Of a stretch of DNA of 64,000 nucleotides, positions 28,970 to 58,749 are shown piece by piece; positions within the stretch are counted from its first letter, which is position 1, and each line of letters opens with the position of its first letter. The DNA is taken from assembly GCA_023245865.1 (NCBI GenBank), contig JAHFJN010000001.1, positions 398,587-462,586 of the forward strand. Direction: 5' to 3'. Below the pieces are notes generated by a model. That model was given only the letters and a program-made list of their open reading frames with translations. It searched no databases and was not told the origin of the DNA. Made by a program: the position numbers and the translations under genes. The DNA is from Candidatus Peribacteria bacterium (GTDB taxonomy: Bacteria; Patescibacteriota; Gracilibacteria; Peribacterales; Peribacteraceae).

Positions 28970-29035
28970 GTTTGAAAGTTGAAAAGTAGAAAGTTGAAAA
29001 GAGATGAGCAAAAACCTTCTACCTTCAAACTTTGG
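28970..29035 (+). repeat. inverted heptamer arrays upstream of eno
   Basis: Left arm 28970-29001 repeats GAAAGTT/GAAAAGT-type heptamers; the right arm 29014-29035, read on the other strand, gives CAAAGTT, TGAAGGT, AGAAGG. The arms can pair as one long imperfect hairpin. It lies between eno and the upstream gene, with the right arm inside the last codons of that gene. Confidence 0.75.
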
Positions 29036-42196: not shown

Positions 42197-42634
42197 ATGC
42201 ACGTCCAGATCCAACGCATCGATCCGACCCTCCCCCTCCCCTCCTACCAGACCAAAGGTGCGGTGGGATTCGACGTGATCACGCGCGAGACGACCATGAT
42301 AGAACCGGGCCAGATCGCCCTCGTACCCGGCAATGTGATTGTGAAAGTTCCGGATGGGTATGCGCTGCTCCTCGTTCCGCGTTCTTCGTTACCACGTAAA
42401 AAAGGCCTCATCTGCCCCCACTCACTCGGTGTGATCGATCAAGATTACCACGGAGAAAAAGACGAACTGATGGTGCAGGTGCAAAATATTTCAGAGGCAA
42501 CGGTCACCGTCGAGCGCGGCGAACGGATCGCCCAGGGGTTATTCGTAAAAATCGAGCAAGCGGCATGGGAAGAAGTGACGAGTCACAATGCTACAAGTAG
42601 GGGCGGATTCGGTAGCACCGGGGGTCACAGTTAA
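42197..42634 (+). CDS. dut: dUTP diphosphatase
   Basis: 145 residues. All five trimeric dUTPase motifs are visible: GAVGFDV, PRSSL, GVIDQDYHGE, RGERIAQGLF and RGGFGSTGG. Hydrolyses dUTP to dUMP, protecting DNA from uracil and feeding thymidylate synthesis. Followed within two bases by the four-helix-bundle cassette. Confidence 0.95.
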   Translation: MHVQIQRIDPTLPLPSYQTKGAVGFDVITRETTMIEPGQIALVPGNVIVKVPDGYALLLVPRSSLPRKKGLICPHSLGVIDQDYHGEKDELMVQVQNISEATVTVERGERIAQGLFVKIEQAAWEEVTSHNATSRGGFGSTGGHS

Positions 42635-42635
42635 C

Positions 42636-43082
42636 GTTGCTGGTTGCTCGTTTACTCGTTGCTCGAACGTGCAATCGGATCACGGTGCAGATGCTCCTGA
42701 AGATACGCCATAAGCTTTGCAAGTTGTGCCCCGATTTTTCTTGTTCGTTCTGCAGCATCCTTGAATTCGGGCTCTGTCATATATCCTTCATCGACACCAT
42801 AATACAAATGTGAACGAACCTCGGCACTAGATCGTTTCGCATAGCCCAAAAACATTACAAATTCAGGATTTGTCGTTGCATCATTTCCTTCCGCAATATT
42901 TGCCATGATCGACAATGCTGCGCGTGAAATTTGATCAGCCCATCCCCAATCTTTCCTTTCAACTGCCTTCTTGCAAAACAACCGGACCATGCGAGTAAGA
43001 TCTCGAGCTTCCTGCCATGCAGCAATCTCCTCGAAAGTTTTAAATTGCATAGCGAGAAACGAGAAACCAGTGAACCAGCAAC
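42636..43082. mobile_element. four-helix-bundle gene cassette framed by inverted heptamer arrays
   Basis: Left array (42636-42665) reads GTTGCTG, GTTGCTC, GTTTACTC, GTTGCTC. The right array (43052-43082), read on the minus strand, gives GTTGCTG, GTTCACTG, GTTTCTC, GTTTCTC. The arrays are inverted, and the 447-bp unit fits exactly between the ends of dut (42634) and ftsZ (43084). The gene's start and stop lie at the inner edges of the arrays, with its last codons inside the left one. Confidence 0.75.
42652..43050 (-). CDS. four-helix-bundle protein (23S rRNA intervening-sequence / Avd-like family)
   Basis: 132 residues. The family motif FEEIAAWQEARDLTRMVRLFC at the start, DQISRAALSIMANIAEG, the FLGYAKRSSAEVRSHLY segment and a C-terminal helix are typical. 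Members are found in 23S rRNA intervening sequences and are related to the accessory protein Avd of diversity-generating retroelements; they are small basic oligomers that bind nucleic acid. No ribosome-binding site precedes the ATG; the heptamer array is directly upstream. The stop codon and the last residues (SSNE) come from the other array. Confidence 0.9.
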   Translation of the reverse strand: MQFKTFEEIAAWQEARDLTRMVRLFCKKAVERKDWGWADQISRAALSIMANIAEGNDATTNPEFVMFLGYAKRSSAEVRSHLYYGVDEGYMTEPEFKDAAERTRKIGAQLAKLMAYLQEHLHRDPIARSSNE

Positions 43083-43083
43083 A

Positions 43084-44337
43084 TTATTTACTGATCGGCT
43101 TCCTCATGAACGCCGGAACCTCCAGTTCCTCTTCATCGAGCTTGGGGGCAGTGGACTTCGCAGCGGGTTCGACCTTGTCCTCTTTGAATCCTCGCATGTC
43201 GCGTTCGTTGCGCGCGGGTGGTGTTCCCGCTTTGCTGAGGTAGCGCTGCGCCGGAGTGCTGTACCCTGCCGGTGAACTCATGTCCGGTGCATCGAAACCC
43301 GTCGCGATGACGGTACACTTCACTTGTCCCGTGTAGTTTTCATCGATGACGGCACCGAAGATGATCGTGGCCTCGGGTGCGGCGGTCTCCGTGATGATGC
43401 GCGCAGCCTCGTCGACTTCGAACATGCTGAGATCATTGCCACCCGTGATATTAAAGAGAATCCCCTTCGCTCCGCTGATGCTGAGATCGAGCAGCGGACT
43501 GTCGATCGCTGCTCTGGCCGCCTCGGCAGCGCGGCTGTCGCCCGTACCGTAGCCGATACCCATGAGCGTGGTTCCGCCGTCTTGCATGATGGTCCGGACG
43601 TCCGCGAAGTCGACGTTCACGAGACCGTGCTGTGTGATGAGGCTGCTGATCCCTTCGATGGCATGCTGCAGCACTTCATCGACGACCTCGAAGGCTTCCG
43701 TGAGAGGCGTGGTTTTATCGATGATGGAGAGAATTTTATCGTTTGGAATCGTAATCAACGTATCAACCTTGCCCTTGAGCAGTTCCAGCGCTTCCTCGGC
43801 ATTCTTGCGACGCTTGAGACCCTCGAAACTAAACGGCTTCGTGACGACCCCGACCGTGAGGATCCCCATGCTGCGCGCCAGCTCCGCAATGATATGGAGC
43901 GCGCCGCTCCCCGTGCCGCCACCGAGGCCCGCCGTGAGGAAAAGCATATCCGTGCCCTCGAGTTCTTTTTTGATCTCCTCCGTGCTCTCCTCCGCCGCAC
44001 GCTTGCCGATTTCGGGGTTTGCCCCCGCGCCGAGCCCCCGTGTGGTGCCGCGACCGATCGTGATCTTCTTTGGTGCAGGATTGTGGTAAAGAGCCTGCAA
44101 ATCGGTATTCACGGCAATAAACTCCACTCCCTGCACTTTGCCGGTCACCATACGCGCGACAGCGTTCGATCCGCCTCCGCCCGCACCGAGCACACGAATG
44201 ACGGCACCGGGCAGAGCGTCGGGCCGCACCTCGCGCACGGACGCTTGCGTTGTGTCATCATCTCCTTTTCCCGTACCTGTACCGGTGCCAGTGGTGGGCC
44301 GTTGATTCGAGAACAGTGAGCGGAAGGTATCGGACAT
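43084..44337 (-). CDS. ftsZ: cell division GTPase FtsZ
   Basis: 417 residues. Tubulin-type nucleotide motifs: GAGGGGSNAV (about residues 51-60) and GGGTGSGA (139-146). The C-terminal linker is short and ends in the conserved peptide EELEVPAFMRKP, which docks FtsA. An N-terminal Thr/Gly repeat (TGTGTGTGKG) lengthens the disordered start. Lies 18 bases downstream of ftsA, the usual ftsA-ftsZ order. Confidence 0.97.
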   Translation of the reverse strand: MSDTFRSLFSNQRPTTGTGTGTGKGDDDTTQASVREVRPDALPGAVIRVLGAGGGGSNAVARMVTGKVQGVEFIAVNTDLQALYHNPAPKKITIGRGTTRGLGAGANPEIGKRAAEESTEEIKKELEGTDMLFLTAGLGGGTGSGALHIIAELARSMGILTVGVVTKPFSFEGLKRRKNAEEALELLKGKVDTLITIPNDKILSIIDKTTPLTEAFEVVDEVLQHAIEGISSLITQHGLVNVDFADVRTIMQDGGTTLMGIGYGTGDSRAAEAARAAIDSPLLDLSISGAKGILFNITGGNDLSMFEVDEAARIITETAAPEATIIFGAVIDENYTGQVKCTVIATGFDAPDMSSPAGYSTPAQRYLSKAGTPPARNERDMRGFKEDKVEPAAKSTAPKLDEEELEVPAFMRKPISK

Positions 44338-45588: not shown

Positions 45589-45939
45589 AAAACTGAAGGG
45601 TAATAGGGAAGCAAAACATACTCCGACCGCTGCATTCGTTGATGGAAATCAGTCTACGGATGATGCATACGCCATTGCAAGGGCACTACGACTACCTTTC
45701 GTGTACAGAATTGCGAAACGAGTGCACAAAATATGTTCAGAACTTTTGGCTCACCTTCAAGGGAAAGACAAAAATGTATTCAGGAGAAAACGGGGCGAAT
45801 TATTAGTGTATACGGATTGTATACAGAAATTTCCTCTCCTTGAGGGAGAGGACTGAGGTGAGGGGTCCACAAAAATTTCCACAAATTGAATTTGCTCCAA
45901 CCCCTCACCCTAACCCTCTCCCGCGGGGAGAGGGAAGAA
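45589..45939. other. 351-bp gap upstream of ftsA: weak ORF and empty DUF559-type repeat frame
   Basis: 45589-45830 presumably contains the ftsA promoter. A plus-strand frame runs through it to 45856 but has no start codon clear of ftsA and no recognisable family. GTATAC words form an imperfect palindrome near 45809-45825. 45834-45936 is a palindromic repeat pair, described separately. Confidence 0.5.
45834..45936. repeat. empty version of the DUF559 cassette frame (inverted palindrome pair)
   Basis: CCTCTCCTTGAGGGAGAGG hairpin plus GAGGTGAGGGGTCC (45834-45870), then about 30 AT-rich bases, then ACCCCTCACCCTAACC and a CTCTCCCGCGGGGAGAGG hairpin (45900-45933). Same order and orientation as the frame around the DUF559 gene at 37.6-38.0 kb. 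Confidence 0.85.
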
Positions 45940-46931: not shown

Positions 46932-47010
46932 CGGGTTCGGGTTCGGGTTCGGACTTTACTTGTAATTAAATAGTTTCCTAATCCTAACCCAAACCCTAGC
47001 CCGAACCCTC
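46932..47010. repeat. inverted hexamer arrays
   Basis: Left arm repeats GGGTTC three times (46933-46950). The right arm, read on the minus strand, gives GGGTTC, GGGCTA, GGGTTT, GGGTTA, GGATTA (to about 46978). About 25 AT-rich bases separate them. Period 6 in both arms. Confidence 0.85.
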
Positions 47011-47630: not shown

Positions 47631-47714
47631 GAAGGTATGGAAGGTATCGGAGGTACGGGAGGTATTGGAAGTCACTTTCCTTACATCCATTACATTCCTT
47701 ACCTTCCTTACTTC
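47631..47714. repeat. inverted nonamer arrays
   Basis: Left arm units GAAGGTATG, GAAGGTATC, GGAGGTACG, GGAGGTATT. The right arm (47675-47714), on the other strand, gives GAAGTAAGG, AAGGTAAGG, AATGTAATG, GATGTAAGG. Only three bases separate the arms. Period 9. Confidence 0.88.
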
Positions 47715-56579: not shown

Positions 56580-56616
56580 GAAAAGAGGATTTCTCACTAT
56601 TATAGCAGAATTTATG

Positions 56617-56690
56617 ATAGTAAGGAAGGTACGGGAGGTAAGGGAGGTGCCTCCAGTACTTTCTATACCTTCGTTACTTTCCTTACCGTA
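56617..56690. repeat. inverted nonamer arrays upstream of ruvC
   Basis: Left arm units GTAAGGAAG, GTACGGGAG, GTAAGGGAG. The right arm (56651-56690), on the other strand, gives GGTAAGGAA, AGTAACGAA, GGTATAGAA, AGTACTGGA. Two bases separate the arms. It also contains the ruvC -10 box (TATCAT, 56689-56694). Confidence 0.85.
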
Positions 56691-56694
56691 TCAT
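56689..56694 (+). promoter_or_regulatory. -10 box (TATCAT) six bases before ruvC
   Basis: TATCAT, then CCCCCC, then ATG. No ribosome-binding site; leaderless mRNA likely. Confidence 0.55.
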
Positions 56695-58683: not shown

Positions 58684-58749
58684 AGAATAACAGAATATCG
58701 GAATAACAGAATAACAGGCCCTGTTACTCCGATACTCCGACTCTAATTC
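58684..58749. repeat. inverted octamer arrays upstream of the Nudix gene
   Basis: Left arm units GAATAACA, GAATATCG, GAATAACA, GAATAACA. The right arm (58719-58749), on the other strand, gives GAGTCG, GAGTATCG, GAGTAACA, GG. The arms are adjacent with no spacer. Period 8. The right arm overlaps the last codons of the bL33-like gene. Confidence 0.87.

Follow-up and report, generated by a model that had tools for sequence, protein, structure and literature searches.

Between the convergent genes dut and ftsZ of a Candidatus Peribacteria bacterium (assembly GCA_023245865.1) lie 449 nt of DNA containing one small gene, enclosed by short repeats in inverted orientation. What is this unit, and how did it come to lie there? 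The stretch of DNA analysed here, referred to as the window, comprises 64,000 nucleotides of contig JAHFJN010000001.1 (positions 398,587 to 462,586, forward strand); coordinates below are those of the window unless a contig or locus is given. An earlier reading made from the sequence alone (the sequence-only reading) had proposed that the gene and its inverted arrays form a mobile unit. A survey of the gene family, the covariation of repeat and protein, and empty sites all support this proposal, and the unit is probably one instance of a mobile element of wide distribution—a single gene, related to Avd of diversity-generating retroelements (DGRs), between inverted arrays.

An array-bounded gene between dut and ftsZ

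The unit consists of all the DNA (42635–43083) between the stop codons of dut (42197–42634, plus strand; stop at 42634) and ftsZ (43084–44337, minus strand; stop at 43084), exactly as the sequence-only reading had placed it. Its sole gene is an open reading frame (ORF) of 132 amino acids on the minus strand (42652–43050). The two arms, 42632–42665 and 43053–43086, are inverted; complementarity is 76% across 34 nt and rises to 83% in an inner block of 23 nt, so the description of inverted GTTGCTC-type heptamer arrays was accurate. Each arm comprises approximately four degenerate 7-mers (GTTGCTG GTTGCTC GTTTACTC GTTGCTC). The dut-side array (42635–42665, plus strand), which forms the 3' arm of the gene, reads GTTGCTG/GTTGCTC/GTTTACTC/GTTGCTC, while its inverted partner on the ftsZ side (43053–43083, minus strand), the 5' arm, is CGAGAAACGAGAAACCAGTGAACCAGCAAC and reads GTTGCTGGTTCACTGGTTTCTCGTTTCTCG on the strand of the gene. 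The gene had been said to start and stop at the inner edges of the arrays. This holds for the start codon, which lies at the inner edge of the ftsZ-side array, 2 nt inward, but not for the stop codon (TAA), which falls together with the final codons inside the dut-side array. No Shine–Dalgarno sequence is visible before the gene, in agreement with the earlier remark that it has no ribosome-binding site. The RNA fold of the single-stranded unit is closed by pairing of arm with arm, with a z-score of -2.0 for the fold as a whole.

The encoded protein matches PF05635 (90.7 bits, cut-off 33.8) and TIGR02436 (90.4 bits, cut-off 24); searches of Pfam and NCBIfam returned no family of another kind in the unit. 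Its predicted structure has a pLDDT (predicted local distance difference test) of 93.8. In Foldseek the model matches 2gsc, 2rld and Avd (4dwl), and is also close to 8ub7, Avd of a DGR ribonucleoprotein, with TM-scores against four-helix-bundle structures of 0.70–0.80 (query) and 0.80–0.93 (target). These matches uphold the earlier assignment to the family of 23S rRNA intervening sequence (IVS) proteins, related to Avd. Solved structures of two relatives, 2gsc and 2rld, contain five chains. Residues Q40, S47, E54 and E77 are invariant across 19 diverse family members and are candidates for a functional role. The family gene is under purifying selection (dS ~0.9–1.3, dN ~0.1, dN/dS ~0.1). For the S23/IVP family, we know of crystal structures but of no established function.

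Inverted arrays and repeat units across the family

Inverted arrays are the rule of the PF05635/TIGR02436 family. The source genome (1.1 Mb) contains three family genes above the cut-off and a divergent, Avd-like fourth; all three are bounded by arrays, each with a unit of its own (GTTGCTC, GTTTGAA and AATGTAGA). A family gene is present in 43 of 59 relatives from the class of the window, with as many as 21 copies per genome. Among the first 31 relatives, 30 inverted-arm scores (30–80) exceeded the maximum of 27 found at 122 control positions; the score at the window locus is 41. In the class as a whole, 78 of 91 testable genes scored higher than 99% of 457 control windows. For 12 of the remaining 13 the left arm was found further out, 125–201 nt upstream, in a wider search run without a control of its own. 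The rule extends to approximately 20 other phyla—including Bacteroidota, Bacillota, Pseudomonadota, Acidobacteriota, Planctomycetota and Chloroflexota—where 53 of 79 family genes exceeded the 99% control level, and on cyanobacterial plasmids inverted arrays were recognised by eye and by score at five of six gene copies. The repeat period is 7 in 48 of 58 loci across phyla; in the window's class it is 7 in 40 of 84 loci and 9 in 27, with a period of 9 in one part of the family and 8- or 9-mers in some clades. Many loci per genome bear tandem, degenerate, intergenic 7-mers, as is typical of short tandemly repeated repetitive (STRR) sequences. The sequence-only reading had suggested this survey, and neither of the outcomes that it named as refuting its proposal, array-less homologues at the same locus or arrays unlinked to the family, was encountered.

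The unit sequence also tracks the protein, as that reading had proposed should be examined. When loci are ordered by the protein tree the units cluster: AGCTTTG, GTAGTGA, TTAGGG/TTGGGG, and 9-mers such as GGAACCAGA and GGTAAGGTA. Protein identity and array similarity are correlated in the window's class (Mantel r = 0.36, a value reached in 0 of 2000 permutations), and again in 0 of 2000 when arrays were shuffled only among copies in the same genome, a control that takes genome composition out of the correlation. Across phyla the correlation is weaker (r = 0.16, 0 of 3000). Upstream of dinB and of frr, copies at the same site in different genera have come to differ in their unit, yet within each copy the arms still match one another. 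At five orthologous sites the median arm score was 42 within a copy against 20.5 between copies, a comparison biased by the choice of arms through best self-alignment, so that the main weight lies on the control windows and the Mantel tests. Together, covariation and within-copy matching suggest that the protein recognises the repeats and that the arms pair with, or convert, one another.

The gene has been found in varied settings. On cyanobacterial plasmids it occurs within CRISPR-cas operons, in the gaps between cas6 and cas4 (locus L230) and between cas10 and cmr3 (L255), and at a further locus (L229) it lies between the genes for ribonucleotide reductase subunits.

Insertion, empty sites and gene-less array pairs

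The gene and both arrays insert as one unit, at intergenic sites, with a target duplication of 4–5 bp. With dut as the landmark for the empty site, the dut loci of 30 relatives were compared, and a family gene was found between dut and ftsZ only in the source genome and one other. The two proteins belong to unrelated clades, with 22% identity, and their genes are oppositely oriented, which indicates that the two copies arrived independently. In the case of the window's own copy, the relatives without a gene at this locus have flanks too diverged for a duplication to be read. Clean empty sites, of the kind the sequence-only reading had advised looking for, are supplied by cyanobacterial plasmids that are ~97% identical, in which the empty form lacks the gene along with its two arrays; here the arrays form the termini of what was inserted. 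At the first site, the empty form on Aulosira, Fremyella and Nostoc carneum plasmids is AAAAAGTAATTAACAAATAA, whereas Trichormus and Scytonema have AAAAAGTAAT, then arrays and gene, then GTAATTAACAAATAA, with a 5-bp duplication, GTAAT. At the second, on Nostoc plasmids, the element lies between AGGTTCTA and TTCTAGTTATG against an empty AGGTTCTAGGTTATG, and the 5-bp duplication TTCTA is less certain, as TTCT is similar to the repeat and one base differs. A gene-less array pair on an Aulosira plasmid has inserted between AAAATTGAC and TGACTGACTCGCG, compared with AAAATTGACTGACTCGCG when empty, with a 4-bp duplication, TGAC. A search of 50,697 phage records for carriage of the element gave no match.

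Gene-less array pairs of this type are more numerous than the genes, frequently bear the unit of a gene resident in the same genome, and enclose unrelated sequences; between dut and ftsZ in several relatives they stand in the place of the element. Two Nostoc plasmids share a site and its outer heptamer arrays (L257:160–470 and L232:755–1020) but differ in their inner segments, while three others (L258, L259 and L262) are without the array pair. This pattern suggests exchange of cargo between arrays. In Xanthomonas codiaei, arrays of a GGGACC 7-mer gave 51 matches against 0 for the reversed pattern, and in 13 of 13 recognised pairs the G-rich strands converge, as in the gene-bearing copy. A second family gene in this species has GGGATTC/GGGAATC arms, and GGGAATC arrays are the other abundant type there; its two array types thus match its two family genes. 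The polarity of gene-less arrays is also kept in the window's class (30:4, p = 6e-6).

A genome with 12 family genes has 16 such arrays in 180 kb (8.9 per 100 kb), compared with 2 in 213 kb (0.9 per 100 kb; p = 2e-4) in gene-free genomes, where a third match, a run of N, was not counted. The same strict detector found only 2 in 464 kb of the source genome, with its three genes, indicating that array density is no simple function of gene presence. For 20 gene-less arrays, the best match lay in the same genome 4 times against 0.83 expected (p = 0.008), in a test weakened by incomplete sampling of the genes of each genome.

A common inner core was considered for the Xanthomonas gene-less elements and rejected, as the inner segments printed look unrelated, apart from a tandem duplication at one locus (L237:1360–1770). 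This gene-less X. codiaei element contains two tandem copies of an inner segment, each preceded by an array, and then three reverse arrays. Nor did Rfam identify the inner segments of gene-less elements, giving no match. One gene-less CAGGAGT pair on a Calothrix plasmid (L252:1–183) encloses a stretch that resembles part of a tRNA gene, likewise without a match in Rfam.

In the source genome, gene-less arrays were searched for with the arms of the elements themselves. Across 464 kb, the window unit as query picked out four hairpin arrays that hold no gene, joint top among the family arms tested, and the arm of its nearest relative found the same four. Within the window, gene-less inverted arrays, to which no strand is assigned, lie at 28971–29033 (GTTTGAA type, the unit carried by L001, a second element resident in the genome), 46932–47009 (a 6-mer of CGGGTT / CCTAAC type) and 47631–47706 (a 9-mer of GGAAGGTAT type, the unit that relatives have in the L087/L093/L096 clade), with a further 9-mer array of this last type at 56614–56694. 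Short 8-mer arrays (AGAATAAC, TACTCCGA) lie near one another at 58684–58740. A different type of hairpin, CCCTCTCCC...GGGAGAGGG with GGGTGAGGG tails, which is not a 7-mer array, is found at 45830–45936; it is also intergenic at L101, L110 and L122, and recurs in several relatives.

Mechanism, alternatives and relation to known elements

How does so small a unit move? The explanation towards which we lean, with some reserve, is a new class of element in which a small protein with no known recombinase or reverse transcriptase (RT) domain recognises the end repeats and mobilises the DNA that they bound, the co-diverging pair of protein and repeat generating families of heptamers. In this scheme an oligomer of the protein, perhaps of five chains as in the solved relatives, would bind the tandem repeats with one site per repeat, and would pair the two inverted arms, either as a cruciform or hairpin or as an RNA stem. 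It would then bring the ends of the element to insertion machinery. Its own element would be served in cis, and any segment with the same repeats could be served in trans, as are miniature inverted-repeat transposable elements (MITEs). Recognition of so short a repeat would allow the unit to change through slippage and through conversion of one arm by the other, with the protein and the two arms co-evolving.

Several points weigh against this explanation. Its weakest links are a missing catalyst, as neither a recombinase nor a nuclease nor an RT is encoded by the element, and the scarcity of clean target duplications: these come from three sites, of which two are partly ambiguous, and every one is on a cyanobacterial plasmid. 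Covariation is the only evidence that the protein binds the arrays, some gene-less arrays match no sampled resident gene, and the exchange of inner segments between the two Nostoc plasmids could also be cassette exchange through ordinary recombination.

Movement at the level of RNA, which the sequence-only reading had considered plausible, would proceed as follows: as with the 23S IVS, a transcript stem closed by the arrays would be excised by RNase III, rendering the insertion harmless, and an RT acting in trans, with the Avd-like protein as its partner, would copy the element into new sites. The protein family and the architecture of an ORF within a hairpin are shared with the 23S IVS (PMC4990558), the fold is close to that of Avd in the DGR ribonucleoprotein (4dwl, 8ub7), and the arms do pair in the RNA fold. 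Carriers of the gene are, moreover, somewhat commoner among RT-bearing genomes (17 of 18, against 26 of 41; p = 0.02). Despite this enrichment, no RVT_1 match was detectable in 26 of 43 carriers, including the single-contig genomes G028 and G029 and the near-complete G013 with its 7 genes, so that a resident RT is rejected as a strict requirement and RNA-mediated movement is left unsupported. The element has also inserted in both orientations relative to its neighbours at dut–ftsZ, and an RNA-level mechanism is judged unlikely.

A different account, rather improbable in our view, would make the arrays host repeats—terminators, regulatory sequences or G-quadruplexes (G4)—which spread alone, with the gene a passenger inserting into arrays or exchanged between them. 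It would explain why gene-less arrays exceed the genes in number and hold unrelated DNA, and why identical outer arrays on Nostoc plasmids enclose differing inner segments; several arrays lie between convergent genes, and heptamers of this kind have been described as regulatory or G4 (PMC4692102, PMC4679880, PMC2700814). Against it, the array unit tracks the protein tree even within genomes, empty sites lack both the gene and the two arrays, and gene-free genomes are poor in arrays. The arrays are also degenerate, of low complexity and fast-evolving in their arms, as would be expected had replication slippage or template switching made quasi-palindromic repeats whose association with the family is due to chance or composition. 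This idea is hardly tenable: it is contradicted already by control windows and permutations, with 78 of 91 and 53 of 79 genes against a control level of 1%, and also by conserved polarity and by precise presence or absence with target duplications.

With MITEs and insertion sequences the element shares inverted ends, target duplication and non-autonomous copies apparently mobilised in trans. It differs from them in its fast-changing tandem-array ends, with no fixed end sequence, and in having no transposase domain; its gene-less copies, unlike MITEs, have inner segments unrelated to the gene-bearing copy. Repetitive extragenic palindromic (REP) sequences and REPINs with their REP-associated tyrosine transposases (RAYTs) are likewise short intergenic palindromic repeats that depend on a protein gene. 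Here, however, the units are tandem 7–9-mers and the genes travel with the arrays, and the array-linked protein, unlike RAYT, is not a Y1 HUH enzyme (RAYTs were not searched for genome-wide). The window protein has the fold of Avd from DGRs, as judged by Foldseek, but its gene has no adjacent RT, template repeat or variable repeat.

To our knowledge, tandem heptamers have been reported repeatedly in cyanobacteria, Xanthomonas, Geobacter and Beggiatoaceae with no accepted origin. The cyanobacterial STRR, Xanthomonas GGGAATC, Geobacter GGGACCG and Beggiatoaceae TAACTGA repeats resemble those of the element in being degenerate 7-mers which are mostly intergenic, and those of Xanthomonas often form inverted pairs. 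Heptamers of Xanthomonas and Nostoc, Beggiatoaceae and Geobacter have been published as G4, regulatory or unexplained, in accounts that omit the PF05635 family (PMC4692102, PMC4679880, PMC2700814); the origin of the X. campestris GGGAATC arrays is not known (PMC4692102). No paper linking the PF05635 family to short repeats was found in the open-licence literature, and as most subscription journals lay outside the search, priority is not certain.

The closest parallel in size and layout is the 23S IVS, long suspected of selfishness (PMC4990558). In Coxiella its ends form one 28-bp stem (PMC4990558). Like the window unit, the IVS of Leptospira and Coxiella (S23p/IVP ORF) is ~430–450 nt in length and has a PF05635 ORF within stem-forming inverted ends. 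The window unit, by contrast, is flanked by protein genes and is not part of 23S rRNA, and the element further differs in its tandem ends of variable unit, in being present many times in a genome, in having gene-less derivatives and in its 4–5 bp duplications. We know of no described class of element with array ends, no recombinase and repeats acting in trans.

If this explanation is correct, it would account for many of the short repeats that have seemed puzzling in bacterial genomes, a protein partner would be predicted for each repeat family, and the S23/IVP protein would gain a substrate. It would add to the known mobile elements one of less than 0.5 kb, found in many phyla and inserting between essential genes. 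Should the protein itself cut and join, it would be an enzyme of a new type that moves DNA or RNA; should it not, the element would represent a new way of hijacking host machinery.

The source genome does contain RT matches, at C3:606943 and C3:851087, both outside the window (C3:398587–462586). The second lies, with the divergent, sub-threshold Avd-like gene, at a locus (L004; C3:850570–853734) where repeats beginning ccgggcagccgaggaccagaca and ~450 nt apart resemble template and variable repeats, and which is apparently a DGR. In two genomes of the window's class, G044 and G055, the RT reading frames are rich in in-frame TGA codons, as expected if TGA is read as an amino acid there.
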